Assembly: GCF_003815975.1 (NCBI RefSeq)
Contig: NZ_CP033932.1
Coordinates: forward strand, 3,825,501 to 3,889,500
Origin: Chryseobacterium bernardetii
GTDB taxonomy: Bacteria > Bacteroidota > Bacteroidia > Flavobacteriales > Weeksellaceae
DNA length: 64,000 nt
Reading direction: 5' to 3'
Shown: piece after piece, positions 5,678-62,947 of the stretch
How the letters are laid out: the number at the start of each line of letters is the position of its first letter
Numbering within the stretch: position 1 is the stretch's first letter
Notes under the pieces: model-generated
What the model was told of the DNA's origin: nothing
The model's database searches: none
What the model saw: the letters and a program-made list of their open reading frames with translations, nothing else
Translations under genes and position numbers: made by a program

Positions 5678-5694
5678 CATCATAATTCAATACA

Positions 5695-8199: not shown

Positions 8200-8200
8200 T

Positions 8201-9226: not shown

Positions 9227-9228
9227 TG

Positions 9229-10323
9229 ATGAAAAAAGTATTGTTTATCGATCGCGATGGTACCCTTATCATTGAACCTCCCACTGATTTTCAGGTAGAT
9301 TCACTGGAAAAGCTTGAATTTTATCCCGGTGTTTTCCAAAACCTTTCAAAAATTGCCAATGAACTGGATTATGAGCTGGTAATGGTAACTAACCAGGATG
9401 GGTTGGGAACAGAAAGCTTTCCTTCTGAAGATTTTATTGTGCCTCATGAAAAAATGCTTAAGGCTTTTGAAAATGAAGGCATCATTTTCAGTGATATTTT
9501 GATAGATAAAAGCTTTGAAAGTGAAAATTTACCTACGAGAAAGCCTGGAACAGGGATGATGTCAAAATACATCTATGGTGATTATGATCTGGAAAGTTCC
9601 TATGTAATTGGTGATCGAGGTACGGATGTTCAACTTGCTAAGAATTTGGGTTCTAAGTCTATTTTCCTTAACCAAAGCTTTAATAAAGACGCAGACCTTA
9701 CCACCACAAGCTGGAATGAGATTTACCAGTTCTTAAAATCCGGAATGAGGAAAGCCAGAGTCTACAGAAAGACCAATGAAACAGAAATAGAAATTGAAGT
9801 GAACATTGATGGAAAAGGCCAGTCTGAAATTTCAACCGGACTTCACTTTTTTGATCATATGCTGGATCAGATTGCCAGACACGGAAATATGGATCTTAAG
9901 ATCAAAGTAAACGGAGACCTTCAGGTAGATGAACATCACACCGTTGAAGATACAGGAATTGTTCTGGGAGAAGCTATTTTAAAAGCATTGGGGAAGAAAA
10001 AAGGAATTGAAAGATATGGTTTTCTGCTTCCGATGGATGATTGTCTCTCACAGGTGGCCATTGATTTCGGTGGCAGATCCTGGCTGGTTTGGGATGCTGA
10101 ATTCAAAAGAGAAAAAATAGGAGATGTTCCTACAGAAATGTTCTTCCATTTCTTTAAATCTTTTACAGATTCTTCAAAAACGAATTTAAATATTAAAGCA
10201 GAAGGTGAGAATGAGCACCACAAGATAGAATCCATCTTCAAAGCTTTTGCAAAAGCAGTGAAAATGGCAGTTAATCAATCGGATGCCAGCTATAATTTAC
10301 CTTCAACCAAAGGAAGTTTATAA
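9229..10323 (+). CDS. hisB: Bifunctional histidinol-phosphatase / imidazoleglycerol-phosphate dehydratase
   Basis: A fused enzyme for two pathway steps. The N-terminal ~165 residues are a HAD-type histidinol-phosphatase ([10 protein letters not shown] nucleophile motif, [18 protein letters not shown]). The rest is imidazoleglycerol-phosphate dehydratase with the metal-binding clusters [14 protein letters not shown] and [10 protein letters not shown] and a late [16 protein letters not shown] chose ATG at 9229; a GTG three bases earlier overlaps the hisC stop and is less likely. The fusion matches the gammaproteobacterial arrangement and is also common in Bacteroidota. Length 364 residues. Confidence 0.96.
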
Positions 10324-14736: not shown

Positions 14737-17700
14737 ATGAAAAAAGCAATTATAACTTTAGGAACAATTTTATTATTTACTACAGCTGTTCCTGCTCAAT
14801 ATGTCCCTAAAATTTTACCGCCTTCACCTAATGCAACCTCGATAGCAAAGTTCGTTGAAAGTCCGGTTTCTTACTATCGTGGTACAGCAAATATTAATAT
14901 ACCATTATTTAATATAGATACAGGTGATATTCCTTTGAATGTATCTATACAGTATGATACGAAAGGAATCAGAGTGGCAGAAATCTCTTCTTCAGTTGGA
15001 GCTGGCTGGAGTTTATTAACTGGAGGATTGATTACCAGGCAGATAAGACAACGACCTGATGAATATAGTAAGGGGTATTTAACTTATTCTTACAATTCAG
15101 ATTTTGAAAATAACACTGTTTTGAGACATCAACTGGGAGATGAAAATGCATCTTACGCAGACTCTCCTACACCGGTGGATGAGGATCCGGATATGTTTTT
15201 TATTAATTTTCTTGGAAAATCAGCCAAATTTATCATCGACAATGTTACTAAAAAAGCTGTGACCCAAAGTTTTGATGACTGGAAAATAGATATCGATTAC
15301 GAGAATCCATTAGACGGTAACTACAGAATTAATAGGATTATTATTACTGATGAAACTGGAAATCAATATTTCTTTGGTCAGGACATTTCCAAACTCAATT
15401 CTGCTTATGATATTGTTACTTCTGTAAGTTCGGGACTGATAGCCCCTATTTCGGAACCCCCTACATATCAGGAAAATAGCTATAGAACTGCCTGGCATTT
15501 AAAAGAAGTCAAAACTCTAAAGAATAACTATCTGTTTAATTATACTTCGGAGCAGGTAACCACCTATTCAAAAACAGATATCAATAAAGGAGATTATATA
15601 GGTGCTATATCTTTAGCTACTACAAGAACAACACAGCAGGTTCTTCAAAATATTATTTTTCCTGAAGGAAGTCTGGATTTTATATACAGTTCTTCTGAAC
15701 GTGAAGATTTAGAGGGGGGTAAAGCCTTAAATGCTTTGATATTAAAAGATAATAAGGGGGAACAAATGAAGAAAATATCATTTGTCCAAAGTTATCACTC
15801 TGGTAATCATAATAATATTCATCCTTTAGTATTGCAAAAAGACTTGAGATCAGATAAAAGATTATTTTTAAATCAGGTTAATGAACTGGATAAGAATGAT
15901 AATATTCTTTCGTCTTATAAACTTGAGTATAATTCCATGGAACTTCCTAATCGACATTCCAATTCCATTGATTATTGGGGATATTATAATGGTAAATCTA
16001 ATAGTATGAATATTTTTACCGATGTAAAAGATGGGAATAGAGATGTATATTCGGCCTATACTGAAGCAGGAATTTTAACGAAAATAATTTATCCTACTGG
16101 AGGCAGTGAAAATTTTTATTATGAAGATAATAATGTTTTGATTCCTACATATTTTTCAAATTTTATATTATCCAACCCCTCACGAATTTTATATGATGAC
16201 AAAGTAACAGCACTTGCAAAAGCTCCTGATAATTTTGTACTGAATAATGGAAGTGCTACTATCGGTAAATATATAAAGGTTTTTGATATTCCTAATGTTT
16301 ATGGGAATAAATTTTCATTTACTGCTATGTTGGGAGTTGGCTGTACTTCTGTAGAAACATCAGATTGTAAAACGAAAGTAAGGCTGTACAGGATTGATAA
16401 GAATACAGGAGCTATTTTAGCAAGCTATACAATTACTCAGGGCAATAATGTTGAGCTGGTAAATCCTCCTTTTGAAAGTGGAAAATATAGATTGGAAGTT
16501 TCTAATCCTAGCTTTACCCTAAATGATTCTCAAAATTATGAGACCAATCCTTTTTCAGTGGCATTAAGATGGAAAGAGTATAAACCCGACATTCCTATAA
16601 ACAGTTTTGTAGGTGGAGGGAGGAGAATCTCCAGAATTGAAGTAAATGATAACGGAAAAATTACCAAAAGAAAATATACTTACACTTTACCTAATGGAAC
16701 AACATCAGGAAAATTGCTAGGAATTCCTGATTACATGTGCATTATAAAAAAATATGGGAATCTTACTATGATAGCAGGCCAGATTCAAAATAGAATACAG
16801 CCCATGTCAAGCTTCAATAATGCCGGGCAGGTAGGGTATTCCCAAGTTACAGAAACCTTTTCATCAGGTGATGATTCGGTATTATGGTCTAAAAAATATA
16901 ATTTTACAAACTATCCGGATGGTGGTCAATACTATAAATTTCCTTATCACCTTCCAGATGATATGGATTGGGCAAGAGGGCTGAATCTAAACACAACAAT
17001 GTATGATTCCGAAGGGAAAACAGTAGAATTATTAGAAAATAAATATAATTTTTCAGATGAACAGTTCTTTCCATATAGGTTTTACAGAACATTTAATGGT
17101 GATGTGGGTACAAATGCTCCGTATACGGAATTAACTCCATTGCCTCCGGCACAGGCGCCTTCCAGTTATCTTTTATCTCACAATATTAAAAGTATTCCAA
17201 TATATAAATGGGGGAATTACCTCAATGGCCCTCTCGATTCATCAACTTTATTCAATTATGATATTTACAGAACATCTTTTTTTTATGGAGGTATGATACG
17301 TAATTATCAAAAAATAAAAACAGAATATGTAAATGGGATAGCTGTTAAAAAAATGTATATTGATATAGCAAAAGAAAGTCTTAATCATCATCAGGTAACC
17401 TCTGAGAATACTATTTACTCAGATGGTACGAGCCAGGAAACCTCCTACCAATATGCCCATGAAAAAGGAAACATAAAATTGATCAATGCCAATATGATAG
17501 GTATTCCTTTAGAGACAACTGTTATCAGAAAACAGAATGCTAATGATCCTAATGGAAAAATCATTTCAAAAACAGAAACAAAATATGATAATCCATCGAA
17601 CTTATTCCCAAGTTCTGTTGTATCCACTGATTTACAAAATGTTGTATCTACTGAAGTGAGTTACGACAAATATGATAGTAAAGGAAATCTTCAGCAGTAT

Positions 17701-18087
17701 ACCACTAAAGATGGAGTTTCAACGGTAATCATCTGGGGATATAACGGCACCCGGCCTATTGCCAAGATTGAAAATGCAAAACTGGAGAACATTGGGCAGT
17801 CATTCATAGACAGTATTGTGAATGCCTCTAATACAGATGCAGCCGCAGAAAGGAATAATGATGAAACTACGCTGTTAAATGCATTTAAAACTTTTAAAGA
17901 CAATTTATCCGGCTATCAGATCACTACCTACACCTATGATCCATTAATCGGAGTGAGAAGTATTACCCCGCCATCCGGCATCAGGGAAGTTTATCTTTAT
18001 GATGATGCGGGCAGATTAAAAGAAATCAGAGAGCAAAACAACACCGGAAAATTATTAAAAGAATTTAACTACCATTACAAAAACTAA
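14737..18087 (+). CDS. Large secreted SpvB/YD-repeat-like protein of an RHS operon
   Basis: An 1116-residue protein with an N-terminal signal peptide (ending around TTAVPAQ, residue 21). Residues ~30-110 resemble the start of SpvB/TcB-type and YD-repeat proteins: INIPLFNIDTGDIPLNVSIQYD, then VGAGWSLLTGGLITRQ followed by RPDE. The C-terminal ~150 residues carry YD-like units (YDKYDSKGNLQQYTTKDG, YDDAGRLKEIREQNN). There is no RHS core and no sorting tail. The stop lies five bases before the RHS gene. In RHS and Tc toxins such segments build the hollow shell around a toxin tail, so this protein may be a companion shell component; that role is inference. The middle of the protein is not recognised. 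Confidence 0.7.
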   Translation: MKKAIITLGTILLFTTAVPAQYVPKILPPSPNATSIAKFVESPVSYYRGTANINIPLFNIDTGDIPLNVSIQYDTKGIRVAEISSSVGAGWSLLTGGLITRQIRQRPDEYSKGYLTYSYNSDFENNTVLRHQLGDENASYADSPTPVDEDPDMFFINFLGKSAKFIIDNVTKKAVTQSFDDWKIDIDYENPLDGNYRINRIIITDETGNQYFFGQDISKLNSAYDIVTSVSSGLIAPISEPPTYQENSYRTAWHLKEVKTLKNNYLFNYTSEQVTTYSKTDINKGDYIGAISLATTRTTQQVLQNIIFPEGSLDFIYSSSEREDLEGGKALNALILKDNKGEQMKKISFVQSYHSGNHNNIHPLVLQKDLRSDKRLFLNQVNELDKNDNILSSYKLEYNSMELPNRHSNSIDYWGYYNGKSNSMNIFTDVKDGNRDVYSAYTEAGILTKIIYPTGGSENFYYEDNNVLIPTYFSNFILSNPSRILYDDKVTALAKAPDNFVLNNGSATIGKYIKVFDIPNVYGNKFSFTAMLGVGCTSVETSDCKTKVRLYRIDKNTGAILASYTITQGNNVELVNPPFESGKYRLEVSNPSFTLNDSQNYETNPFSVALRWKEYKPDIPINSFVGGGRRISRIEVNDNGKITKRKYTYTLPNGTTSGKLLGIPDYMCIIKKYGNLTMIAGQIQNRIQPMSSFNNAGQVGYSQVTETFSSGDDSVLWSKKYNFTNYPDGGQYYKFPYHLPDDMDWARGLNLNTTMYDSEGKTVELLENKYNFSDEQFFPYRFYRTFNGDVGTNAPYTELTPLPPAQAPSSYLLSHNIKSIPIYKWGNYLNGPLDSSTLFNYDIYRTSFFYGGMIRNYQKIKTEYVNGIAVKKMYIDIAKESLNHHQVTSENTIYSDGTSQETSYQYAHEKGNIKLINANMIGIPLETTVIRKQNANDPNGKIISKTETKYDNPSNLFPSSVVSTDLQNVVSTEVSYDKYDSKGNLQQYTTKDGVSTVIIWGYNGTRPIAKIENAKLENIGQSFIDSIVNASNTDAAAERNNDETTLLNAFKTFKDNLSGYQITTYTYDPLIGVRSITPPSGIREVYLYDDAGRLKEIREQNNTGKLLKEFNYHYKN

Positions 18088-18092
18088 CAACG

Positions 18093-21000
18093 ATGAAAAA
18101 AATACTCATTCCCATAGGTATGCTGCTGATGGGCCATTCCGTCCATGCCCAGGCTACTCCGGGAGAAAACTATATTCAATCCAAGACTTATCTGGATTAC
18201 AATGGAACAACTCCAACAAAAATCTCAGAAACTGTTCAGTATTTTGATGGACTCGGAAGGCCAAAGCAGGTAGTGAACGTAAAAGCTTCTCCCGGAGGAA
18301 AGGATGTGGTTACCCATATTGAATATGATCAGTTTGGAAGACAGGTTAAAGATTATCTTCCCATCCCACAATCCGGAACCCAAAGCGGAGCTATATATAC
18401 TTCCCCTCTTGGGAATGCTTCCAGTGCATATGGCTCTGAAAAGATCTATTCAGAAAAAATATTGGAAAACTCTCCCTTAGACAGAATCCGGCAGCAGATC
18501 CAGGTAGGTAATGACTGGGCTAACAAACCCGTGAAATTTCAATATGATGCTAATGTTTGGGAAGACTACGTAAGGAAATATGAAACTACTACTACGTGGG
18601 TTGAAGGAAGGACACAAACCTCGGTTCAGCTCCTTCAGTATTTCCAGCCGTCACAGCTCTATAAAAACACCGTCACCGATGAAGACGGCAATAAAACCAT
18701 AGAATTCAAAAATGGTAAAGGACAGGTTTTATTGGTTAGGAAAGTATTGAATTCCACACAGAATACTGATACATACTATGTTTATAATGAATATGATCAA
18801 TTAGCATTTGTTATTCCTCCTTTAGCATCATCCCCCACTGTAGAGACTGGCACTGTAGAAAATTTGTATTATCAGTACCGTTATGATGGAAAAGGCAGAC
18901 TTGTAGAAAAGAAGCTTCCTGGAAAAGGTTGGGAATATATGGTATATGATAAAGCAGACAGGCTGGTAATGACTCAGGATGCTAATATGAACCCTACTGG
19001 GAACTGGCTTTTTACCAAATATGATAAATTTTCGCGTGTAGCTTATACAGGAGTGGCATCCATTGGAGCTTGGTTTAAAAGATATCAAGTTCAGAGCAGT
19101 GTAGACTATTATATTGATCATGGACAGCCTGCAACGGAAGAAAGAAAGAGTACAAGTTTTACGCTCAGTGGAATGGAAATATATTATGGTAACACTGCAT
19201 ATCCTTTTGACATAATAAATATTTTATCGGTTAATTATTACGATACCTATCCACAATACAGTTTTAACCCTGCCTTTCCTTCAGCCATTCAGGGAGAGCC
19301 TGTATTGACAGCAGATCCCTCCTCCAATAGTGAAGGAAAAAGTACCAAAGGGCTTCCTGTAATGAGCCTGGTAAAGAATATTGAAGATGATAACTGGACA
19401 AAGAATTACACCTATTATGATACCAAAGGAAGAGTAGTAGGAACCCATTCTATTAATCATTTAGGTGGATACACTAAAACAGAATCCAGGCTGGATTTTG
19501 CGGGAGTAGCTCAAAGCGTTATCACCAGGCATAAAAGGCTGGAAACAGATACAGAAAGAGTCATTACAGAAAACTTTGAATATGACCATCAGAACAGGCT
19601 GCTTACTCATAAGCATCAGGTAGACAGTAACCCAACAGAAATCCTTACCCAGAATAAATACAATGAACTTTCCCAGCTAGAAACGAAGAAAGTAGGAGGG
19701 GCAGATACCGCTAATCCTTTACAGAGTATAGACTACAGATACAATATCAGAGGCTGGATGACCATGATTAATGACCCTTCGAACCTTAATGGAGATTTAT
19801 TTGGATATAAAATGAAGTATAACAATCCGGAATCTTCGGCTTCAACAATAGGCAGGTTCAATGGTAACATTGCAGAGATCGACTGGAAAACCTCTACGGA
19901 TGGTATTTATAGAAGATACAATTATAATTATGATAACTTAAACAGAATGTTTCATGCTGTTTACAGTAAACCAGGTTCAACAGTAGAAATTACAAGCGCT
20001 TATAACGAATGGGTGCAATATGATCTTAATGGCAATATTACCCGATTAGACCGATATGGGCAGTCAGATGGTAACAGTCCTATACAGATAGATCAATTGT
20101 ATTATACATATAATGGTAATAGACTGGCTTCTGTATCAGATGCATCAGGGAATTTTTCGGGATATCCTACCGGTGGTAATCCTATATCCTATGATGCCAA
20201 TGGTAATATGACTAATCATTTAGATAAAAATATAACTTCAATAGCGTATAATTTTTTAAACCTTCCTGCCTATGTTACTAAGAATAATAATAAAAGTCCA
20301 TTTGGCAGTATAAGTTCTTATTTATATAGAACAGATGGTACTAAACTTAAAAAATTGTATTCTTACTATAAAAGAGATTCTCAAGGAAATACAAGCCTTG
20401 CACAGACTGTTACAGATTATTTAGATGGGTTTCAGTATGTTTTGAATACAACGGGAGTAGGATGTCTGGATTGTCCACCACCTTTACCTGATTTACAATT
20501 TGTACCCACATCAGAGGGCTATTATGATTTTGTGAAAAATAAGTATATTTACAACTATGTAGATCATTTAGGTAATGTAAGAATGAGTTACGAGAAAGGA
20601 ACTACAGGAACACAGGTCATTGAAGAAAGTAACTATTATCCTTTTGGGTTAAAACATGAAGGATATAATACTTCGGTTGGAAATCCTTTGTACAACTATA
20701 AATATAATGGCAAGGAACTGCAAAAAGAGACTGGGATGTATGATTATGGAGCAAGAATGTATATGCCGGATATTGGACGATGGGGTATTGTCGATCCATT
20801 AGCGGAGAAGATGACAAGACATAGTCCTTATAACTATGCGTTTAATAATCCTATTAGATTTATTGACCCTGATGGAAGGGAAGGAAAAGGATGGATTAAA
20901 TCAGTTGTTGATGGACAAACATCTTGGACTTATGACAAAGATGTTCATTCGCTACAAGATGCAAAAGATAAAAAATATACTGGTGTTACAGAATATCAAG

Positions 21001-21623
21001 ATGCCTTAACAATAACTGGGACAAGTAATGGACAACAAAATTATCAATATACTTTAGATGCTTCAGGTGTGGCAACCGACTCTAGTGGAAAAGTAATGAC
21101 AGAATCTTTTACAACTGGGGCAGGAACTCAAATTGGAGTTAATCCTGACAGTCAAATGTTGGCTTCTATTGGCAGTATACAAGGAGGAACAGGATTTTAT
21201 GCTGGACTTACTGGTAGTATTTTAGTTGGAGGAGGAATTACAGCTTCATTAGGTCTTGTACAAGACGGGAATGGTCATGTAGAAACATATTTTACATTAG
21301 GCGGAGGCTTAGGTTTTGGTGTTTCAGGAGGTATTGAGGGAGGTGCAATCATCCCGACAGATCCCAATCACACATTTGTTACTTCTGAATTTAGAGGTAC
21401 AAGTATTACATATTCTGGAGGAGAAGGACTTGTTAATGGCTCTTTTGGAGGAACATTTAGTGATAAATATAAAGGGTTTAAAAATGCTGATAATTTTGAT
21501 ATGTCTCATTTTGGAGTACACACTCCAGATGGATACAGAACCAAAGGCTTTGGAATTATTAAGGGAAGTGCAGGTCTGCCTGTTTCTTGGGCAAAAACAA
21601 ATACTTGGGTAAGTGGAAAATAA
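18093..21623 (+). CDS. RHS repeat protein (DUF6443-type) with variable C-terminal toxin-like domain
   Basis: A 1176-residue secreted RHS protein. A signal peptide (to about MGHSVHAQA) is followed by the N-terminal region recognised as DUF6443 in Bacteroidota (NYIQSKTYLDYNGTTPTKIS; QYFDGLGRPKQVV), many YD repeats, and the RHS-associated core near residues 840-928 (NYVDHLGNVRMSYE, YYPFGLKHEGYN, YDYGARMYMPDIGRW, YAFNNPIRFIDPDGRE). The ~247 residues after DPDGRE are unlike the rest: glycine-rich, alternating small and hydrophobic, ending in SWAKTNTWVSGK. In polymorphic toxins this position holds the effector domain. I do not recognise the fold. A small gene overlapping its stop codon is a candidate immunity gene. 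Confidence 0.88.
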   Translation: MKKILIPIGMLLMGHSVHAQATPGENYIQSKTYLDYNGTTPTKISETVQYFDGLGRPKQVVNVKASPGGKDVVTHIEYDQFGRQVKDYLPIPQSGTQSGAIYTSPLGNASSAYGSEKIYSEKILENSPLDRIRQQIQVGNDWANKPVKFQYDANVWEDYVRKYETTTTWVEGRTQTSVQLLQYFQPSQLYKNTVTDEDGNKTIEFKNGKGQVLLVRKVLNSTQNTDTYYVYNEYDQLAFVIPPLASSPTVETGTVENLYYQYRYDGKGRLVEKKLPGKGWEYMVYDKADRLVMTQDANMNPTGNWLFTKYDKFSRVAYTGVASIGAWFKRYQVQSSVDYYIDHGQPATEERKSTSFTLSGMEIYYGNTAYPFDIINILSVNYYDTYPQYSFNPAFPSAIQGEPVLTADPSSNSEGKSTKGLPVMSLVKNIEDDNWTKNYTYYDTKGRVVGTHSINHLGGYTKTESRLDFAGVAQSVITRHKRLETDTERVITENFEYDHQNRLLTHKHQVDSNPTEILTQNKYNELSQLETKKVGGADTANPLQSIDYRYNIRGWMTMINDPSNLNGDLFGYKMKYNNPESSASTIGRFNGNIAEIDWKTSTDGIYRRYNYNYDNLNRMFHAVYSKPGSTVEITSAYNEWVQYDLNGNITRLDRYGQSDGNSPIQIDQLYYTYNGNRLASVSDASGNFSGYPTGGNPISYDANGNMTNHLDKNITSIAYNFLNLPAYVTKNNNKSPFGSISSYLYRTDGTKLKKLYSYYKRDSQGNTSLAQTVTDYLDGFQYVLNTTGVGCLDCPPPLPDLQFVPTSEGYYDFVKNKYIYNYVDHLGNVRMSYEKGTTGTQVIEESNYYPFGLKHEGYNTSVGNPLYNYKYNGKELQKETGMYDYGARMYMPDIGRWGIVDPLAEKMTRHSPYNYAFNNPIRFIDPDGREGKGWIKSVVDGQTSWTYDKDVHSLQDAKDKKYTGVTEYQDALTITGTSNGQQNYQYTLDASGVATDSSGKVMTESFTTGAGTQIGVNPDSQMLASIGSIQGGTGFYAGLTGSILVGGGITASLGLVQDGNGHVETYFTLGGGLGFGVSGGIEGGAIIPTDPNHTFVTSEFRGTSITYSGGEGLVNGSFGGTFSDKYKGFKNADNFDMSHFGVHTPDGYRTKGFGIIKGSAGLPVSWAKTNTWVSGK

Positions 21624-21975
21624 AATTATTCAAATAGATGGTAGGATTAAAAATTATATAAAATATTGTTTTCTTGCTATATTTTTTGTTATTTTCTTTT
21701 TAGTTTTTTTTCGTAAGAAAACAACCGAAAACAGTCTAATTGACTATGAAATACATGCGAAAGTTGTTGATATTTATAGAGATAGGAATGAACATAATTT
21801 TTTATTTGTAAAATATTCCAATGGTTCGGTAGAATTATTAGATTATCCATATAAAATTGGAGATTCCATATCAAAAAAGAAAGGAGACTCAATAGAATAT
21901 ATACTTAGGAACGGTACTTGGTTGAAAAATAACTTAATTCAACAGGACAAAAAAAAACAAATATTAAATAAATGA
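21613..21975 (+). CDS. Small single-span membrane protein, candidate immunity protein
   Basis: A 120-residue protein starting at GTG 21613 and overlapping the RHS stop by 11 bases, so translation is probably coupled. A membrane helix (about residues 17-34) is followed by a soluble, beta-rich-looking region (IHAKVVDIYRDRNEHNFLFV, then GSVELLDYPYKIGD). Position directly after a toxin-like tail is the standard place for an immunity gene, but no immunity family is recognised. The TGA stop at 21973-21975 coincides with the first bases of the adjoining IS3 element, so the original 3' end may have been cut off. Function is inferred from position only. Confidence 0.55.
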   Translation: MENKIIQIDGRIKNYIKYCFLAIFFVIFFLVFFRKKTTENSLIDYEIHAKVVDIYRDRNEHNFLFVKYSNGSVELLDYPYKIGDSISKKKGDSIEYILRNGTWLKNNLIQQDKKKQILNK

Positions 21976-26870: not shown

Positions 26871-28043
26871 TTATCTCTCAATCAGAATATTTTTAACAAC
26901 AGTCTGGTCTCCTGCTTTTAAAATGCCTACGTAAACACCCCTTTCCAATGCAGAAACGTTAATTTCAGTTTCATTATTCACCTTCAATAGGGTTCTTCCT
27001 GATATATTGGTTATTTCAAAGCTGAAACTGGCTGTTTTATCCGGTAATTCAACATGAAGGATATTATTGGCCGGGTTAGGGTAGAGCTTTACGTTTTCCA
27101 GTGCGTTTGGGGATGCAGATTTATTCACTGCCAAAGTTGTGGAAGCTGTGGCAAAATGCTGTAAAGCCCCTACTGTAGCTTTTCCGATATTATAAACATA
27201 CACAGGATCTACATTGGCAAAAGTATCTTTGGAACTGTGAGGAAAAGTACTTCTGATCCTTTCAAAAAAGCCGGTAATAATCTCACCTTTCTGTTCAAAA
27301 GGAATATAATCAGTATCTTCGGCAGGATCTACAGCTGTCTGAAGTGGGGAATAAAGGGCTGTACAATTTCTGAGCTGCTGTGTTACCGCAGCTGAAGCCG
27401 CATTATTGCCGGAAAGACCACCCTGGTCTTCATCACAATATACCGTGTTATTGTTATTTCCTTTTACACCGCCTACCTGGTCCAGGTTAAAAACCAGTTT
27501 TATATCCAGTTTACGAATTCCGTTTTGATAGACCACATTATTAACGTAATGCGAACTTCCAATCAACCCTTGTTCCTCTCCTGAAAAGTGAATAAACTTG
27601 ATAGAATACTCTGTAGGAACATTTTGTAATATTCTGGCTGCTTCAAGAATAATAGAAGTACCGCTTCCGTTGTCATTAACTCCAGGGCCGTAAATGGTAT
27701 CAAAATGCCCACAGATAATTACATATTTGTTAGGATAAAGTGTTCCTGTCTTTGTAATAATCAGGTTTTTGGATGTTACTGATCCATAGGTGAAAGGGCT
27801 TTCTGTAATCTGGCTGGCAGTATATCCGTAAGAAAGATACTTGTTTTTAATCCAGTTCAAGGTATTTACGTTGGCCTGGGAACCGGTCTTTTTAATGCCA
27901 AGGTTACCGAATTCCTGAAGATTTGCTGTAATATTAGTTTGGGTTACCATATCAGCTCTATCTTTATAAGCCTGGATGAACGTTTGAGCGCTAATGCTCT
28001 GCGCAATTAATGAAGCGCATAAAAGAGTGGTAATTCTTTTCAT
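26871..28043 (-). CDS. Secreted M28 family metallopeptidase with T9SS tail (copy 1)
   Basis: A 390-residue secreted zinc peptidase. I start it at ATG 28043 because MKRITTLLCASLIAQSISAQ is a good signal peptide; a longer frame adds 15 unlikely residues. Co-catalytic metal motifs of M28 are VIICGHFDTI, GVNDNGSGTS, HFSGEEQGL (general base Glu), NLDQVGG and a late His before SKDTFANVDP. The final ~75 residues are a type A sorting domain (VKLYPNPANNILHVELP), so the protein should cross the outer membrane by T9SS. It is one of three tandem paralogues and probably an aminopeptidase; the substrate is unknown. Confidence 0.88.
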   Translation of the reverse strand: MKRITTLLCASLIAQSISAQTFIQAYKDRADMVTQTNITANLQEFGNLGIKKTGSQANVNTLNWIKNKYLSYGYTASQITESPFTYGSVTSKNLIITKTGTLYPNKYVIICGHFDTIYGPGVNDNGSGTSIILEAARILQNVPTEYSIKFIHFSGEEQGLIGSSHYVNNVVYQNGIRKLDIKLVFNLDQVGGVKGNNNNTVYCDEDQGGLSGNNAASAAVTQQLRNCTALYSPLQTAVDPAEDTDYIPFEQKGEIITGFFERIRSTFPHSSKDTFANVDPVYVYNIGKATVGALQHFATASTTLAVNKSASPNALENVKLYPNPANNILHVELPDKTASFSFEITNISGRTLLKVNNETEINVSALERGVYVGILKAGDQTVVKNILIER

Positions 28044-28191
28044 ATATTTAATTTTTAAATGGTATTGCGAATGTAGCAAATAAATCACAATAAAGTGTTT
28101 AAAATTTTATGGATGCCATAAAAAATCGTAAAAATGAAAACACAGAAGGATAGCATTGTGTGTTCTATTTATACTGATAGAGTAGACAATA

Positions 28192-28219
28192 AAACCCTTT
28201 GAAATAGTTCAAAGGGTTT
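28192..28219 (-). terminator. Terminator after M28 peptidase copy 2
   Basis: AAACCCTTTGAA pairs with TTCAAAGGGTTT around ATAG. On the - strand it is followed by TTTT. Confidence 0.8.
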
Positions 28220-28258
28220 ATACATTTTGATAAATATTTTTTTAAATGAAGAAAAAAA

Positions 28259-29440
28259 TTATCTGGCTATAATAACTTTTCTTACTACAGACTGATCTCC
28301 GGTCTTTATGATTCCAACGTAAGCACCATTTTCAAGGCTTGAGATATTAATTTTGTCCTCATTAATTCTTTTAAGTAATGAATGTCCCTCAAAATCAGTA
28401 ATCTCAAAGCTGAAATTCTTTATTTTAGAATCCGCAAAGTCAATGCTGATAAAATCCTTTGCCGGATTAGGATAAATTTTTATAGACTCCAGAGTATTTT
28501 TGGAAACGGACTCCTGAGTTCCCAATGTTTGTGTTGCTGCAACAGCAAAGTGTTGGAGTGCTCCTACAGCAGCTTTACCGATTTTGTAAATATATTCAGG
28601 ATCAGTATTGGCAAAAGTATCATTAACGGTATGCGGATAAGTACTTCTGATTCTTTCAAAAAAACCTGTAATAATTTCACCTCTTTCTTCAAACGGAATA
28701 TAATCGGAAGCTTCTGCCGGATCAACTTCTGTCTGAAGAGGTGAATACAAAGCAGTACAGTTCCTCAGCTCTTGGGTTATAGTGGCGGAAGCTGCATTAT
28801 TACCGGGAATACCTCCCATATCTGCATCACAATACACCGTATTATTGTTATTCCCCATTACACCCCCCACCTGATCCAGATTGAAAACAAGCTTGATATC
28901 CAGAACACGGTTGTTTCCTTGATAAACAACATTATCCACGTAATGATAACTGCCAAAAAGCCCTTGTTCCTCACCTGAAAAATGTATGAACTTAATGGAA
29001 TATTCTGTAGGAACTGTTCTTAAAATTCTTGCTGCCTCCAAAATGACAGAGGTACCGCTTCCATTATCATTAACCCCTAAACCGGTAATACTATCAAAGT
29101 GTCCGCAAATAATCACATATTTATTAGGATAAACCGTTCCTGTTTTTGTGATTATTAAATTTTTTGAGGTTGTAGTTCCATAAGGAAAAGTATCTTCTGA
29201 TATCTGGCTGGCTGAATATCCATAAGACAGGTATTTACTTTTTATCCAATTCAACGCATCAGCATTAGCCTGAGTTCCTGTTTTTTTTACACCCAAACCG
29301 GCAAATGCCTGCAGATTGGTGATAATATCTGTTTGAGAAACAGCATCAGCTCTGTTCTGGTAAGCCTGAATAAAGTTTTGTGCACTAATAGCAGATGAAG
29401 CCATAGCAACCAGCAAAAGGGATAAGTTTTTTTTCATCAT
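28259..29440 (-). CDS. Secreted M28 family metallopeptidase with T9SS tail (copy 2)
   Basis: A 393-residue paralogue of its two neighbours with the same order of parts: signal peptide ending at AISAQ, GHFDSITGLGVNDNGSG, HFSGEEQGLFGSYHY, NLDQVGGVMGNNNNTVYCD, a late His in YPHTVNDTF, and a T9SS tail (IKIYPNPAKDFISIDF). All metal-binding residues are kept, so it should be active. Two ATGs start the frame (29440 and 29437). It has its own terminator downstream and a 47-base gap to copy 3. Divergence from copy 1 is spread along the protein, which suggests an old duplication. Confidence 0.88.
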   Translation of the reverse strand: MMKKNLSLLLVAMASSAISAQNFIQAYQNRADAVSQTDIITNLQAFAGLGVKKTGTQANADALNWIKSKYLSYGYSASQISEDTFPYGTTTSKNLIITKTGTVYPNKYVIICGHFDSITGLGVNDNGSGTSVILEAARILRTVPTEYSIKFIHFSGEEQGLFGSYHYVDNVVYQGNNRVLDIKLVFNLDQVGGVMGNNNNTVYCDADMGGIPGNNAASATITQELRNCTALYSPLQTEVDPAEASDYIPFEERGEIITGFFERIRSTYPHTVNDTFANTDPEYIYKIGKAAVGALQHFAVAATQTLGTQESVSKNTLESIKIYPNPAKDFISIDFADSKIKNFSFEITDFEGHSLLKRINEDKINISSLENGAYVGIIKTGDQSVVRKVIIAR

Positions 29441-56084: not shown

Positions 56085-56510
56085 TTACTCCAGTTCCTGA
56101 TACTCCCAGATCCCTGATATCTTTAAAATTTCCAGCCCCGGTTGCTTTTCTCCATAGCCAAACACACAAAAATAACGGGTCTGGCAAGCTGTACACTGAG
56201 TTCCAAAATAAAGAGTCGGCAGATCATTAACCGTTAATTCTCCATAATGCTGCATCCTCTGTGAGGTCTCATTAATCATTTGATGGTTTAATAGCTCAGA
56301 TTTTGATAGCACTTTGTCTTCATGATAGATTTGAAGAATAGGAAAGCCCGAGTGATAGGGAGATATTTCAACAGTATTTTCATGGCCGCATTCACAGCAG
56401 GTAAATCTGACTATTGCAGCTGGAATGGCTTCTTCATTGATGAATTTATCTTTTTGAAGCAAAACTTTCTTACCGGTCTTTATCTTTTTTGATATTGAAT
56501 ACATCTGCAT
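56085..56510 (-). CDS. Small Cys-rich protein following the TNT gene, candidate immunity protein
   Basis: A 141-residue cytoplasmic protein (no signal) with two CxxC pairs that may bind zinc: FTCCECGHENTVEI and GTQCTACQTRYFCVFGYG. It starts five bases after the TNT-domain lipoprotein gene on the same strand and shares its transcript. Position is that of an immunity or accessory protein. No match to the M. tuberculosis immunity factor IFT or another known family is seen. Candidate role only. Confidence 0.6.
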   Translation of the reverse strand: MQMYSISKKIKTGKKVLLQKDKFINEEAIPAAIVRFTCCECGHENTVEISPYHSGFPILQIYHEDKVLSKSELLNHQMINETSQRMQHYGELTVNDLPTLYFGTQCTACQTRYFCVFGYGEKQPGLEILKISGIWEYQELE

Positions 56511-56515
56511 TTAAT

Positions 56516-57232
56516 TTAGTTCTGAATGACTGTTCCTACCAGGTTAGGATATTTTCCGCTTGGGCTTTTTTTAATGGTAATTTTTATATATCCTTCTTCT
56601 GCTAATTTATTCCAAGTTTTTGGATATCCGGTATTAATATCTACAGGAATTTTCCACATGGTCTGTTTTCCGTTTCCGGTTTGATTGAACCAGGGAATAA
56701 TATCTGCCGTTTGGGATTTAAAGGGTAATGCATTAAGAACATCTATTTCGTAATAAAAATCATATTTGTTCTCAGGCTGATTTAACGCTCTTTCAGCGAA
56801 AGTATATACATGGCCATTAATAATCGGGCTGGTAAAGTTTCCTCCTAATGTTGGGTTTCCTGTTCCATTATAAGTTCCCACAGCACCACTGTATCTGTCA
56901 TATTTTTGACCGGCCTGTATGGCTACATCGTCTACGATATTATATCCGCCATTAGCTGGCGGCCAGCCACTATTCAGGTTATTGGTCTGGAATAGTTTTT
57001 CCAGCTCTTTCCAGCTTCCCTGTTTGTACAGATCAAATGCCTGATTTCTGATGGTTTGGTTTACTTTGTTCTCAGGATCATAAGTTGTTGCAAAATCATC
57101 GGCATTTTTGTAGAATACAATTTTAACAGGACTTGGTTTGATAACAATTTCTTCTTCTCTGTCATCAGAGCTACAAGCCACGGAAAAAGATGCTATGGCC
57201 AGAAAAAAGAAGTACTTAAATAAATGTTTCAT
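56516..57232 (-). CDS. Lipoprotein with TNT-type NAD glycohydrolase domain
   Basis: A 238-residue lipoprotein (signal to SVAC, lipid Cys20, then an acidic DDREEE linker). From about residue 88 the sequence follows the tuberculosis necrotizing toxin (TNT, DUF4237) pattern: SGWPPANGGY, QKYDRYSG with R113, GNFTSPI, TFAERALNQPENKYDFYYEI and IIPWFNQTGNGKQTMWKIP with Q190. TNT enzymes hydrolyse NAD+. In known TNTs the Arg of the DR-x-G turn and a Gln after the GxG turn are needed for activity (from memory); both have counterparts here. An unusual insertion (YNGTGNPTLGG) lies between R113 and GNFTSP. The lipid anchor suggests envelope display or export. Confidence 0.72.
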   Translation of the reverse strand: MKHLFKYFFFLAIASFSVACSSDDREEEIVIKPSPVKIVFYKNADDFATTYDPENKVNQTIRNQAFDLYKQGSWKELEKLFQTNNLNSGWPPANGGYNIVDDVAIQAGQKYDRYSGAVGTYNGTGNPTLGGNFTSPIINGHVYTFAERALNQPENKYDFYYEIDVLNALPFKSQTADIIPWFNQTGNGKQTMWKIPVDINTGYPKTWNKLAEEGYIKITIKKSPSGKYPNLVGTVIQN

Positions 57233-57622: not shown

Positions 57623-59854
57623 TTATTTTTTGATAAATATTTTTGATAGTTTTTCAATCTGGATCACATAGTTTCCTGTTGCCAGCCTGCTTACGTTCAC
57701 AGTTCCATTTTGAAGCGAACCGTCCATTACAAGTTTTCCGGACATGTCATAGATTTTAAAACTTTCTGATTTGGTATTTGAAAGCGTCAGAATATCCTTT
57801 ACCGGATTTGGATAGAGTTTAACTTCCGTGGAAGCTGCTGCCAGTTGGTTTTCTGCAGTTGATAACCCACTGGTGGTTACAGCAATATTGGAATTATTTA
57901 CATCAAAGAAGATGTGATTGCTTCCTTTTACCATAATTCTTCCTAAAAGGGTTGCAATATTAGGAATGACTACAGCTTCTGAACCATCATTAGGTGTTCC
58001 TGCCAATAGAGTAGTCCAGGTTTCTCCATTATCTGTAGACCAAAGGATATCAACGTTGGCTGCATTGATATTATTGGCGGTTGTTCCTGCCACATCCCAG
58101 GTTACTGTTTGTAAACTTCCTCCTACATAAGATACGGAAGTATTCTGAGAAGTAACAAGGAAAGGCCCGGCAAGAGCATTTACTGTGATTTTAGCATCAT
58201 CAGAATTGTTTCCTGCACCCCCTAATCTGTTGTCTCTAACAGTAAATCTGAAATTAAGATCTCTTGTAACGGAAGATAATGCTTCAACATTGATTTCATC
58301 TCCCATTGTTACCATTTCTCCCTTTAAAATAGTTGCCATTTGAGGAAAATATCTTACCGGAGAAGCTGCAGGAACCCATGATCTGAATGTAGGCCCGGCA
58401 GTTTTTGTAGCTGTAGCTGCAGAATTGCTTCCTGTTTGGGAAGAAGTTCCATAATCCATCTGCTCCCAGATGTAAGTGAGAGAATCCCCATCTGCATCAG
58501 TTCCTGAACCCGTTAGTACAAAAGGCGTACTTTGAGGGATTGTATAATCTGCTCCTGCATTGGCTGTAGGAATATTATTTCCTGTAGGTGTATTTACAGA
58601 ACAGGTTTTTGTTTTAATATTGTCTGTGATCTGTTCAATACTGCGGGCATGAAAAAACGGATTTGAGTTTTTCTGTACATCATAAGGTGTAATTCCTGCA
58701 TATCCCATAATGGTAGATCCGGAACCTGGTTCTACAGGCTGAAGACCATCTTGTGTTGTATATGAAAAGGTATGGTTCCCCCCAAACTGATGTCCCATTT
58801 CGTGAGCAACAAAATCAATATCAAAAGTATCTCCGGAAGGAATACCGTTAGAAGGTGAGGTATAGCCGCTTCCTTTATAATTTTCAGGATAGGTGGTTCC
58901 CTGATAGACATAAGTTGTCATATCATTGCTGCATATACATCCGATGCACCCAGCGTTTCCACCGCCTCCTGTAGCACCGAATAAGTGTCCGATATCAAAA
59001 TTTGCATTCCCTATTTTTGAACTCAGGTCATTCATAAGCTCAAGGTTCCATTTGTTCATTTGCAAGGATTCAGAAAAGGGATCACTATTAGCATCAGTAT
59101 AAACAATAACATCATTGTTAGGAATCAGAACCATCCTTGCAGCAAAGTCATTTTCAAAAATACCATTCACACGGGTTAAGGTATTATTCATGGCAGCTAG
59201 AGCATTAGCCTTAGTTCCTCCAAAATAAGCTGCATATTCTCCCGTACAGGACAATGCCAATCTGAAGGTTCTTAATATTGCATCATCAGCATTTTTAGCT
59301 GTTACCAGGGAAGTTCCTTTTTGTGCAGATTCCAGTACTTTGCATTCAAAATTATTCAGATCGCTTTTTCTATCTGATCGTTTATATACTGCATACGTAG
59401 AAAGATCTTTAGTATAAGGCTCAATGAAAACGGCGGATTTATCACCATAAATTTCCATAGATGATAAGCCTAGAGAAGAAATACTGAAATAAACTGTTGA
59501 TGTCTTATCTTGTAGTCCCTGGCCAATATAGGATTTAATATCCGGATATTTAGCAGCCAATTCGGGATCGAAATTTGAGTTTTCCGTTACAGTGAAATGT
59601 TCCATCTTTCCAGATGAATTGGGAAGAGAAATAATAACCGATGATTTTTCTGTGGCTCTTTTTGGAGTTTTTGCCAATACATTTTTTAACCCATTAATGT
59701 CCAGATGAAAAATTCTCGGATCATTTATATTTTTCATATTCTCATAAACAGAAGATGAGCTTTCCTTAGATCTTCTAGACCACAGACGGTCTGTTTGTGC
59801 AGAAGAAACGCCGGACAATACCAGCATTCCCATCATTAATAATTCTTTTTTCAT
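57623..59854 (-). CDS. Secreted M12B-like zinc metalloprotease with T9SS tail (short paralogue)
   Basis: A 743-residue exported protease. I start it at ATG 59854 (MKKELLMMGMLVLSGVSSAQ, signal peptide); eight further codons are open upstream. A propeptide region (about 20-190) precedes a reprolysin-like catalytic domain with DFVAHEMGHQFGGNHTF (zinc HExxHxxGxxH) and the Met-turn STIMGYAGI. Cys-rich GCIGCICSND suggests disulfides. Beta-sandwich domains follow, then a type A T9SS tail (VKLYPNPVKDILTLSN). It is a clear paralogue of the longer gene directly upstream (60014-62947), lacking that protein's FN3 and GEVED modules. The target proteins are unknown. Confidence 0.9.
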   Translation of the reverse strand: MKKELLMMGMLVLSGVSSAQTDRLWSRRSKESSSSVYENMKNINDPRIFHLDINGLKNVLAKTPKRATEKSSVIISLPNSSGKMEHFTVTENSNFDPELAAKYPDIKSYIGQGLQDKTSTVYFSISSLGLSSMEIYGDKSAVFIEPYTKDLSTYAVYKRSDRKSDLNNFECKVLESAQKGTSLVTAKNADDAILRTFRLALSCTGEYAAYFGGTKANALAAMNNTLTRVNGIFENDFAARMVLIPNNDVIVYTDANSDPFSESLQMNKWNLELMNDLSSKIGNANFDIGHLFGATGGGGNAGCIGCICSNDMTTYVYQGTTYPENYKGSGYTSPSNGIPSGDTFDIDFVAHEMGHQFGGNHTFSYTTQDGLQPVEPGSGSTIMGYAGITPYDVQKNSNPFFHARSIEQITDNIKTKTCSVNTPTGNNIPTANAGADYTIPQSTPFVLTGSGTDADGDSLTYIWEQMDYGTSSQTGSNSAATATKTAGPTFRSWVPAASPVRYFPQMATILKGEMVTMGDEINVEALSSVTRDLNFRFTVRDNRLGGAGNNSDDAKITVNALAGPFLVTSQNTSVSYVGGSLQTVTWDVAGTTANNINAANVDILWSTDNGETWTTLLAGTPNDGSEAVVIPNIATLLGRIMVKGSNHIFFDVNNSNIAVTTSGLSTAENQLAAASTEVKLYPNPVKDILTLSNTKSESFKIYDMSGKLVMDGSLQNGTVNVSRLATGNYVIQIEKLSKIFIKK

Positions 59855-59875
59855 TTTGCGTGATTTTTTATAGAT

Positions 59876-59883
59876 CAAAAATA
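59876..59883 (-). promoter_or_regulatory. Promoter -7 element of the shorter metalloprotease
   Basis: The complement reads TATTTTTG, 22 bases before the chosen ATG at 59854; this also argues against using the longer frame. Confidence 0.5.
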
Positions 59884-59964
59884 GTAAAAAATATTAACAA
59901 CTAATTATTCTTTTTTAGAATAATTAAAAATAATAATCAACTCTCTGAGTATAAACAGATAAAA

Positions 59965-59989
59965 AAACTGCCCTGTTATAGGGCAGTTT
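59965..59989 (-). terminator. Terminator after the longer T9SS metalloprotease gene
   Basis: AAACTGCCCT pairs with AGGGCAGTTT around GTTAT, with a T run next on the - strand. Confidence 0.88.
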
Positions 59990-60013
59990 CACATCGTTTA
60001 AATTTTATAATGA

Positions 60014-62947
60014 CTAGTTCTTAACAAATCGTTTAGAAACTTCACCTATCTGGATCATATAAGCTCCTTTAATCAAGTTACTTACATTCACAGATCCTCT
60101 CTGAAGTTTTCCTGAACCAACTACTTTTCCACCCATATCAAATATTTTGTAATCTTCAGAAGTAGTGTTGGAGATATACATGATATCTTTTACCGGGTTA
60201 GGATATAGCTTAATATCAGTCATCAGATCTTTCGTATTGGAAAGTTCTCCTCTTCCTGAAGATGTAATATTAACGGTATAATCTTCAACCTGTCCGTATG
60301 TATATGCTTCACAGGATGAAGTAGGAACTGAGCTGTATTTCATCATTACTCTCATTCTTGTTGTACCAAGAACTGCTGTAGATGGAATAGTAACTGATCC
60401 TGTAACCGGACTTGTTGTAGAACCTGTTTTTGTCCAAACAAGCTCGCCACTGTCTGCAAAGCTGCCGTTTCCGTTATAATCAATATAAACTGCATAAGCT
60501 TCACTGTATTTCGTAGAAGTCCAAACAGGAGTGATAGAAAGCGTGTAAGCCGTTCCTCTTGTCACATTGGTAGAGACAGAAGTAAAGTTTTCATAACCTG
60601 CAGTTCCTGTTGAAGTATTGTTGATGGTACCGAATTTCACATTACCAATTCTTTCATCAGCAGTATTAGATGCAGAAGCAGAACAATAAGTAACCGTTCC
60701 ACCACCTGCAAGTGTTGTAACGTTCACCGTATTACTTGAAGAAGAAGCATTACCTGCTGCATCTTTTGCTTTCACAGAGAAGCTGTAAGTAGTGGACGGA
60801 GTTAAGTTTGTTACTGTATAAGTAGTAGAAGCTGTAGAACCGATTAATGAGGCGCCCATATACACATCATATCCTGTAACCCCTACATTATCTGTAGCGC
60901 CTGACCAGGAAAGGTTGGTACTGATAGAAGTAGTTCCTGAAGCCGCAAGGGTAGGTGCAGTAGGAGCAACCGTATCAGGTGTTCCTGACCCTGCATTTAC
61001 AGAAATATTAGCATTGTTTACATCAAAGAAAATATGATTGGATCCTTTTACCATAATTCTTCCTGTAGTGGTAGAAACATTAGGAATAGTTACAGCCTGT
61101 GAGCCATCGTTAGGTGTTGCTGATAATAGAGTAGTCCATGTATTTCCGTTGTCTGTAGACCAAAGAATGTCTACATTGGCGGTGTTTACACCATTAGCAG
61201 TAGTTCCTGCCACATCCCAGGTTACGGTTTGTGAGCTTCCACCTGCATAAGTAGTTGCTGCGTTTTGGGAAGTAACTGCAAAAGGTCCTGCAGTACTGTT
61301 TACCGTAATCACTGCATCATCTGAATTATTTCCGGATCCGCCAGCCTTGTTATCACGAACGGTAAATCTGAAATTTAATGTTCTGGCTACTGAAGAAAGT
61401 GCTTCTACAGTAATTTCAGAACCTGCAGTAGTGGTTGATCCTGCTAAAATAGAAGCCATTCTTGGGAAATATCTTGTAGGAACGGTTGTTGGTGTCCAGG
61501 ATCTGAAATTCGGTCCTGAAGCTTTTGTTGCACTTGCAGCAGAACTTGCTCCGGTTTGAGAAGAAGATGCATTATCCATCTGTTCCCAGATATAAGTTAA
61601 AGAATCACCGTCAGCATCTGTTCCGGTTCCGGTTAATACGAATGGAGTACCTTTTGGAATGGTGTAGTCTAACCCTGCATTAGCTGTTGGAATTGAGTTT
61701 CCTGTATTGGTATTTACAGAGCAGGTTTTAGCTTTAATATTATTGGTGATCTGCTGAATACTGATGGCATGGAAAAATGCGTCAGAGTGAGGCTGAACGT
61801 CCTGGCTGGTAATTCCGGCATATCCCATAATGGTTGATCCTGAACCAGGTTCCATATTAGCTCCTGTTCCTTCATTATTCATAGAGAAGGTGTGGTTTCC
61901 ACCGAACTGGTGCCCCATTTCGTGAGCTACATAATCGATATCGAAATTATCTCCTGATGGAATTGCGTCTGCAGGAGACGTGTAGCCACTACCTTTTGAG
62001 CCGTTTGTACAGATACATCCTATACATCCGGCATTTCCACCACCTCCGGAAGCTCCGAACAAGTGACCGATATCATAATTAGCTTCTCCGATAACAGAAG
62101 TTAAAGTGCTCTGTAATTGGGAGTTCCAGTTGCTCATTCCTGATGCGGCAGAATAAGGGTCTGTAGAAGCATTGGTATAAATTACTGCATCATTGTTGGC
62201 GATAAGAACCATTCTTGCTGCAAAATCTTTTTCGAAAACACCATTTACACGGGTCATTGTGCTGTTCATTGCAGCTAATGCCTGAGCTTTTGTCCCTCCA
62301 AAATAAGCCGTATATTCTCCTGTACAGGATAATGCCAGTCTGAATGTTCTTAGTGTAGAATCGTCAGCATTAGGTCTTGCTGCAATACTTGTATTAGATA
62401 CACCTTTCTTGGCAACGTCTATTACAGTACACTCAAATTTGCTAAGATCATCGTTTTTGTCAGATTTTTTGTAAACAACATAAGTAGAAAGATCTTTTGC
62501 ATAAGGCTCAATAAACACTGCAGATTTATCACCATAAATCTCCATAGATGATAATCCCAGTGGAGAGACACTGAAATATACTGTTGAATTTGGATCTTCA
62601 AGCCCCTGGCCTACATAAGATTTGATGTCCGGGTATTTTGCAGCGAGTTCAGGAGTAAAGTTGGAATTTTCTCTTACTTTAAAGCTTTCCATTCTGCCAT
62701 CAGAGTTCGGAAATGAGATGATAACTTCTGACTTTTCGCCGGCAGCCAATCTCTTTGGAGCCTTTGCCAAAGCATTCTTCAAACCGTTAATATTCAGACT
62801 GAATAATTTAGGATTTCGAATTCCTAATTTGTTTTCAAAAGTCTCCGAAGAGCTTTTTGAGAATTCCTGAGACCAAAGACGGTCAGTTTGTGCGAATGAA
62901 GCTCCGGTAATAAGAAGCATTCCAAGTAGGGTTAATTGTCTTTTCAT
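60014..62947 (-). CDS. Secreted M12B-like zinc metalloprotease with FN3, GEVED and T9SS domains (long paralogue)
   Basis: A 977-residue exported protease. Order: signal peptide (ending LITGASFAQ), propeptide, catalytic domain with DYVAHEMGHQFGGNHTF and STIMGYAGI, Cys-rich GCIGCICTN, beta-sandwich domains (to about 650), a fibronectin type III domain (about 655-745: APTLAASGTTSISTNLSWSG; TPSTTYSFSVKAKDAAGN), a GEVED domain (about 750-895: VYIDYNGNGSF, ending YTYGQVEDYTVNI) and a type A T9SS tail (IKLYPNPVKDIMYISN). The added modules probably bind surfaces or glycans. It is an adjacent duplicate of the shorter gene at 57623-59854. Confidence 0.92.
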   Translation of the reverse strand: MKRQLTLLGMLLITGASFAQTDRLWSQEFSKSSSETFENKLGIRNPKLFSLNINGLKNALAKAPKRLAAGEKSEVIISFPNSDGRMESFKVRENSNFTPELAAKYPDIKSYVGQGLEDPNSTVYFSVSPLGLSSMEIYGDKSAVFIEPYAKDLSTYVVYKKSDKNDDLSKFECTVIDVAKKGVSNTSIAARPNADDSTLRTFRLALSCTGEYTAYFGGTKAQALAAMNSTMTRVNGVFEKDFAARMVLIANNDAVIYTNASTDPYSAASGMSNWNSQLQSTLTSVIGEANYDIGHLFGASGGGGNAGCIGCICTNGSKGSGYTSPADAIPSGDNFDIDYVAHEMGHQFGGNHTFSMNNEGTGANMEPGSGSTIMGYAGITSQDVQPHSDAFFHAISIQQITNNIKAKTCSVNTNTGNSIPTANAGLDYTIPKGTPFVLTGTGTDADGDSLTYIWEQMDNASSSQTGASSAASATKASGPNFRSWTPTTVPTRYFPRMASILAGSTTTAGSEITVEALSSVARTLNFRFTVRDNKAGGSGNNSDDAVITVNSTAGPFAVTSQNAATTYAGGSSQTVTWDVAGTTANGVNTANVDILWSTDNGNTWTTLLSATPNDGSQAVTIPNVSTTTGRIMVKGSNHIFFDVNNANISVNAGSGTPDTVAPTAPTLAASGTTSISTNLSWSGATDNVGVTGYDVYMGASLIGSTASTTYTVTNLTPSTTYSFSVKAKDAAGNASSSSNTVNVTTLAGGGTVTYCSASASNTADERIGNVKFGTINNTSTGTAGYENFTSVSTNVTRGTAYTLSITPVWTSTKYSEAYAVYIDYNGNGSFADSGELVWTKTGSTTSPVTGSVTIPSTAVLGTTRMRVMMKYSSVPTSSCEAYTYGQVEDYTVNITSSGRGELSNTKDLMTDIKLYPNPVKDIMYISNTTSEDYKIFDMGGKVVGSGKLQRGSVNVSNLIKGAYMIQIGEVSKRFVKN

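Follow-up and report, generated by a model that had tools for sequence, protein, structure and literature searches.

A TNT-domain lipoprotein of Chryseobacterium and its adjacent partner, a candidate immunity protein

Results

Within the window, a 64,000-nucleotide stretch of the single-contig, 5.3 Mb genome of Chryseobacterium bernardetii, two open reading frames lie next to each other on the minus strand: 56516-57232, encoding 238 residues, and, downstream of it, 56085-56510, encoding 141 residues. By their reading-frame bounds they are separated by 5 bp, the spacing given in an earlier note on this DNA. However, homologues of the downstream protein (hereafter the partner) are mostly about 139 residues long and begin at Met3 of the 141-residue frame; with this better-supported start, the gap is probably 11 bp. 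Both genes are real, and they are presumably co-transcribed as a two-gene operon. The nearest named match of the 238-residue protein is found in Chryseobacterium contaminans (94%), and the database names of its homologues already describe them as TNT-related. The features of the pair are as follows.

56516..57232, minus strand: TNT-domain lipoprotein, 238 aa
57176..57232, minus strand: type II signal peptide, residues 1-19 (lipobox pattern)
57173..57175, minus strand: predicted lipidated Cys20 (+1)
57149..57172, minus strand: acidic stretch, +2 to +9 (SSDDREEE), resembling the Bacteroidota lipoprotein export signal
56585..56917, minus strand: TNT domain PF14021, residues 106-216 (profile match)
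56894..56896, minus strand: Arg113 (DRYSG), equal to AfNADase R129 / TNT R757; invariant (n = 76), aligned to the fungal DR
56834..56836, minus strand: Phe133 (NFTSP), probable counterpart of AfNADase F137; invariant (n = 76), equated by motif, not by a printed alignment
56789..56791, minus strand: Arg148 (ERAL), probable counterpart of AfNADase R148 / TNT R780 (QRxL); invariant (n = 76), equated by motif
56663..56665, minus strand: Gln190 (GNGKQ), equal to AfNADase Q194; invariant (n = 76), aligned to the fungal Gln
56085..56510, minus strand: partner, 141 aa, proposed to confer immunity; homologues point to Met3 (56504) as the probable start
56388..56399, minus strand: first CxxC, Cys38 and Cys41; invariant (n = 66)
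56184..56195, minus strand: second CxxC, Cys106 and Cys109; invariant (n = 66)
56097..56174, minus strand: C-terminal YGExQ module (YGEKQPG here), residues 113-138; common to other TNT-neighbour proteins

In hmmscan, the 238-residue protein matches the TNT family (PF14021) over residues 106-216 with 26.5 bits (E 8.9e-6) against a curated cut-off of 27; in a genome-wide profile search it reaches 27.1 bits against that cut-off and is the sole TNT match in its genome. Asp112, Arg113, Phe133, Arg148, and Gln190 are invariant across 76 aligned relatives; Asp112, Arg113, and Gln190 align with AfNADase, and Phe133 and Arg148 are equated with their counterparts by motif only. Mutagenesis and structures are reported to mark these catalytic residues in TNT and AfNADase, including a salt bridge from AfNADase R148 / TNT R780 (QRxL) to the Asp of the DR motif (PMC6398120, PMC7955114); F727 of TNT, which is not among the residues matched here, has likewise been studied (PMC6398120). 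Arg113 and Gln190, which the earlier note proposed to mutate, match such residues and are the right choice. The family landmarks it had read from the sequence (DRYSG, FTSP, ERAL, and PWFxQxGxGxQ) are all present, and in loosened forms all four occur in 118 of 120 listed homologues. When a profile of the relatives was compared with the PDB, weak matches were obtained to a TNT-domain protein (E 0.0047) and to AfNADase chains (E 0.022-0.024), and the single-stretch E-values of this search are weaker (0.065 and 0.24); the M. tuberculosis TNT chain was not among the matches up to E 1. The PF14021 match, the invariant residues, and a lipobox support the idea of a TNT domain on a small lipoprotein, which we predict to hydrolyse NAD+. 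That this domain makes up the entire mature part, as first supposed, does not hold: the Pfam domain covers 111 of 219 mature residues, and residues 36-105, approximately, form a further conserved part that recurs from residue 59 on in the TNTs of large toxins.

The signal peptide was called with what we take to be the lipobox pattern. This protein carries it; of the first 103 listed homologues, 102 start with Met, and 100 of these carry it too, a count that leaves out 17 further listed homologues, mostly not lipoproteins. Acidic residues between +2 and +9 average 3.6 in 101 homologues, against 2.5 in 15 SusD proteins from this genome and 1.1 in 13 members of the YfiO/BamD family. Loci lacking a usable N-terminus were dropped from these averages (2 of 103 for the homologues, 2 of 17 for SusD, and 7 of 20 for BamD). 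The acidity of SSDDREEE is thus like or beyond that of SusD and unlike that of BamD, and the stretch is similar, though not identical, to the published export-signal consensus. Acidic stretches after the Cys are described as the surface export signal of Bacteroidota lipoproteins (PMC5080379), and this signal has been linked to vesicle packing in Bacteroides (PMC6222051). The acidic stretch is the one feature that speaks for the surface or vesicle display considered in the earlier note. Domain scans recognised no carrier or entry domain in the 238-residue protein. The same TNT also occurs behind other N-termini. The homologue search used the full-length TNT protein as its query, so that other toxins behind this N-terminus would escape it, and one match (L037) that covers only residues 1-31, the signal region, is left out of the counts.

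The partner has no signal peptide by inspection and carries two CxxC pairs (Cys38/Cys41 and Cys106/Cys109) that are invariant in 66 relatives. It shows a weak match to the zinc-ribbon family PF13717 (19.8 bits versus a cut-off of 30.3) and lies below every cut-off in Pfam, NCBIfam, and PADLOC; these features make it probably a zinc-binding, zinc-ribbon-like protein. Its profile gave six matches in the PDB up to E 10, none of them an immunity protein, in a copy of the database that may lack the IFT chain. A PADLOC defence system was dropped as an explanation, there being no match, and so was an ordinary zinc-ribbon regulator, as the partner never occurs without the lipoprotein in 173 genomes.

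Across these 173 Chryseobacterium genomes, the TNT lipoprotein is found in 121 and the partner in the same 121. A coordinate script run over all 173 genomes, which left out 12 weaker TNT rows (large or partial proteins), found the two genes side by side and in one orientation in each of the 122 copies, the match ends being 7-16 bp apart. The sole partner match left over belongs to a split gene, of which it is the second half, in a genome that is 75% complete. One genome (G103, contig 3) holds the pair twice. Among relatives from named genomes (L002-L036), the partner follows TNT in 34 of 35: 26/26 in Chryseobacterium, 5/5 in Pedobacter, 2/2 in Edaphocola, 1/1 in Aquimarina, and 0/1 in Pseudarcicella, where the neighbour, another CxxC protein (L032), was considered as a relative of the partner and dropped (hhalign 8.7%). 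Outside Chryseobacterium, the pair is kept in 8 of 9 relatives, in other surroundings. In a sample of 395 genomes of the phylum, in which at most 10 candidates were scored per genome, TNT was found in 9 and the partner in 4 (three Chryseobacterium and one other of the same class), each time adjoining such a TNT. Another of the Bacteroidota encodes a Sec-exported TNT protein of 207 residues (L040, 1201-1824) with no partner-like neighbour. The candidate immunity gene is thus adjacent to the toxin gene and co-inherited with it (122 of 122; 34 of 35), as in toxin-immunity pairs.

The Chryseobacterium site is fixed: secreted metalloproteases lie on one side of the pair and a PRA-PH gene on the other. 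In the window, the proteases are tandem M12B-type enzymes with T9SS sorting domains (57623-62947, minus strand), of which the first was not seen in several relatives, such as L008 and L015. Of the 52 genomes that lack the pair, 20 were checked: all 20 have the PRA-PH gene, and in 19 of them the protease gene is next to it. The two genes are thus gained or lost together. Although the Pedobacter proteins are about 68% identical, the window's other neighbours are absent beside them, which makes a transfer of the pair between lineages probable. That the two genes are almost always found together suggests a weapon that is inherited stably and displayed on the cell surface or on vesicles that the cell sheds.

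In another reading, the lipoprotein faces the periplasm and is a domesticated enzyme of the producer's own envelope, with no role between cells. Its occurrence in 121 of the 173 Chryseobacterium genomes and a lipobox without a recognised secretion-system tag would fit. The acidic stretch, however, is unlike that of BamD-family lipoproteins, NAD is not a normal periplasmic pool, and the pair stands in new surroundings in Pedobacter and Edaphocola. We regard a periplasmic enzyme as very improbable.

The C-terminus of the partner connects it to other TNT loci. Compared by hhalign with a family of proteins ending in a YGExQ motif, the partner gives a probability of 96% over 26-31 C-terminal columns, with scores of 54 and 59 versus 20.6 and 23.3 for the best of 100 column shuffles, and among the matches listed, the YGExQ profile finds the partner C-terminus with E < 0.001 in 55 genomes. 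Eleven further TNT copies in Chryseobacterium were considered, one of them in a broken gene, and a twelfth, partial match was left out; a YGExQ protein lies at most 2 kb downstream of 8 of the 11. These eight TNTs belong to seven cargo proteins, whose loci we take to be eCIS (contractile tail genes were verified in one genome), and to one large exported protein, L053. The latter, along with L055, L056, and L058, is presumably a TANFOR toxin by the look of its N-terminus; Pfam found no TANFOR-type domain in L053. The TNT motifs of L053 are partly altered, and those of L055, L056, and L058 (one of these genes is broken) are altered as well, with another neighbour and without a YGExQ protein.

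In the two-toxin cargo proteins, TNT is followed by Ntox28 (L051, L054) or Ntox46 (L052, L057) as the last toxin. The first downstream gene varies with this last toxin (171 or 106-107 residues); the next is constant, encoding 112-115 residues with YGExQ at the end. A comparable arrangement is seen in Aquimarina (L036, reading frame 2857-7281), where TNT is internal (residues 1115-1209 of 1474), a WHH nuclease stands at the end of the protein, and a SUKH immunity gene and then the partner follow downstream. Because they persist while the last toxin changes, the partner and the YGExQ proteins appear to track TNT and not the last toxin, and the internal TNT before the WHH nuclease in Aquimarina favours reading the partner as an immunity protein. 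Several YGExQ proteins (P0280, P0293, P0324, P0328) are fused to PF18660, a Tsi6-type immunity domain, and a source names two as Tsi6 immunity proteins; three other TNT-neighbour YGExQ proteins that were scanned had no Pfam match.

We had expected the YGExQ family to be specific for TNT. This was not found: with E below 1e-29 as the limit for a strong match, the genus has 48, of which 8 lie near a TNT and 40 away from any TNT match, so the module is not TNT-specific. Seven of 30 YGExQ loci hold or adjoin (at most 2 kb) a TNT; the other 23 (L147-L149, L153, L156, L157, L159-L175) consist mostly of small recurring genes, among them families of 78, 131-137, and 150 residues. Ten proteins scanned at or near YGExQ loci comprised one SUKH protein, one pentapeptide-repeat protein, and eight without a family; these eight include two longer YGExQ proteins, which gave no Tsi6 match at E 0.01. 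The TNT-distant YGExQ proteins are possibly parts of immunity arrays or orphan immunity proteins. The motif itself was matched 69 times in 593 reading frames, a count that is no independent test since copies of the same genes repeat and the loci were chosen mostly for TNT. L038, in which the motif stands at residue 87 of 326 and not at the end, was not counted. A protein that resembles an amidohydrolase by eye lies beside two TNT loci, L026 in Pedobacter (7748-9610) and L054 in Chryseobacterium (437-2347), which may be chance.

These comparisons bear on whether the partner, instead of conferring immunity, might regulate the lipoprotein, aid its export, or act as its chaperone. Strict 1:1 pairing without orphans would also be expected of a dedicated chaperone, and zinc-ribbon-like Cys pairs are common in regulators. 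A lipoprotein that passes through Sec, however, normally needs no private chaperone; the C-terminal module is common to other TNT neighbours, where it is fused to a Tsi6-type immunity domain; and the Aquimarina partner comes after a two-toxin protein and a SUKH gene. We therefore consider a helper role improbable. For the proposal of the earlier note that the partner could be an immunity factor, genome comparison gives good support (122 of 122 copies, 34 of 35 relatives, and the shared C-terminal module), which makes it a strong candidate.

Over 27 loci, the toxin has a median dN/dS of 0.076 and the partner one of 0.157, and the medians of three neighbouring genes span 0.030-0.072; 72 of 351 toxin pairs and 86 of 351 partner pairs were used, the rest being excluded for saturation. 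By this measure, both genes of the pair are under purifying selection. The distances of TNT and partner correlate at 0.52 after background, versus 0.06-0.31 for controls; the pairs are not independent and linkage could give the same result. Against a toxin stands that the pair keeps to a single fixed site and varies little, whereas polymorphic toxins typically do not.

The chief rival explanation is a surface ecto-NADase not aimed at bacteria, which would serve nutrition or act against eukaryotic competitors or predators; the partner would then be no more than a safeguard of the producer's own cytoplasm against enzyme molecules that fold ahead of export. A fixed site and purifying selection suit a housekeeping use, and the pair adjoins secreted metalloproteases. 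Surface NADases of fungi are reported to have the same domain (PMC7955114), and the M. tuberculosis TNT is described as hitting host cells while still having the antitoxin IFT (PMC6398120). Against this, the YGExQ motif ties the partner to neighbours of injection-system toxins and of large exported toxins. The fungal surface enzymes, in the accessible part of their source, lack such an immunity factor, and L040 has no such neighbour, which argues mildly for re-entry into kin here. We judge an ecto-NADase of this kind rather unlikely.

Discussion

The reading that we consider most likely, with a confidence slightly better than even, is an antibacterial toxin-immunity pair in which the toxin is a surface or vesicle lipoprotein. 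The toxin would be exported by Sec and lipidated as an outer-membrane protein, and its acidic export signal would probably flip it to the cell surface and so likely bring it onto vesicles. It would pass to neighbouring cells by contact or in vesicles and enter their cytoplasm, where the TNT domain would hydrolyse NAD+ (and NADP+) and deplete NAD. The cytoplasmic zinc-ribbon partner would bind the TNT domain, so that the producer and its kin survive. Immunity proteins of other NADases are reported to insert one of their residues in the enzyme's active site (PMC10539506), and because of this we suggest that the conserved C-terminal YGExQ loop of the partner probably blocks the NAD cleft. The analysis itself establishes the gene pair, the domain with its catalytic residues, the lipobox, the acidic stretch, the near-obligate pairing, and the shared motif; co-transcription, NAD hydrolysis, surface position, neutralisation, the plug loop, transfer, and a bacterial target are inferred.

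A bolder form of this proposal is that the lipid anchor and the acidic signal are the whole delivery apparatus of an NADase weapon delivered by contact or in vesicles, which would have a chromosomal site fixed in most of the genus and a zinc-ribbon partner with a common TNT-inhibiting YGExQ module also present in immunity proteins of injection cargo and large toxins; it would make the pair a Bacteroidota counterpart of SitA. We put this forward tentatively, as a possibility that we doubt somewhat more than we believe.

Several described systems share parts of this arrangement. CpnT of M. tuberculosis has a TNT with the DRxG and QRxL Arg motifs and an adjacent dedicated antitoxin, IFT, but its TNT sits at the C-terminus of a large outer-membrane protein (PMC6398120). 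AfNADase is a surface-displayed TNT-type NADase with counterpart residues R129, F137, R148, and Q194; the fungal enzymes differ in being found on conidia and hyphae, in having a thumb domain, and in being glycosylated, and no immunity factor was found in fungi as far as the accessible part of the source tells (PMC7955114). SitA-SitI of Myxococcus likewise combines an outer-membrane lipoprotein toxin of cytoplasmic action with an immunity gene, whereas SitA toxins are polymorphic, mostly nucleases, carry escort domains, and rely on TraAB membrane exchange; TNT is not mentioned for SitA in the accessible parts of these sources (PMC5562445, PMC8546572). BSAP of the Bacteroidales, from the same phylum, is a surface lipoprotein toxin placed by an export signal, but it is a MACPF protein that forms pores at the surface of its target and not an NADase (PMC12853789). 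TANFOR toxins are described with TNT among their C-terminal domains and with downstream immunity genes, but they are large T9SS-linked proteins and not small lipoproteins (PMC7073777). Rhs1 of Serratia SJC1036 is a PF14021 NAD(P) glycohydrolase with an adjacent 124-residue immunity protein, of which orphan copies are known, but it is delivered by a T6SS (PMC10539506). Amoebophilus APD1/APD2 are lipid-anchored lipobox effectors in Bacteroidota, but they are polymorphic and predicted to act on the amoeba host (PMC3482391).

Each of the elements is already known singly: TNT toxins in Bacteroidota, TNT immunity pairs, and, with SitA and BSAP, toxins that are lipoproteins. The delivery form, which the earlier note called unusual, is so for an NADase, but not for a toxin as such, given SitA and BSAP. 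A lipoprotein TNT of Bacteroidota was not met among the papers listed in searches of open-licence literature, judged by their titles and abstract beginnings, and the same holds for the combination of these elements, the strict pairing, and the shared immunity module. If the proposal is true, Bacteroidota would aim a cytoplasm-acting enzyme at their neighbours without a dedicated secretion machine, by the lipoprotein surface route and perhaps by vesicles, which would raise the question of how a lipid-anchored enzyme gets into the cytoplasm of another cell. The shared YGExQ module would then be a marker for TNT antitoxins that family models miss.

Elsewhere in the window, two long reading frames with sub-threshold matches to RHS repeats, the second also to DUF6443, lie at 14737-21975 on the plus strand; with the 120-residue frame that comes after them (21613-21975), they may form another toxin-immunity locus. 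The minus strand at 26871-29440 encodes a tandem of two M28 peptidases, which carry T9SS sorting domains.
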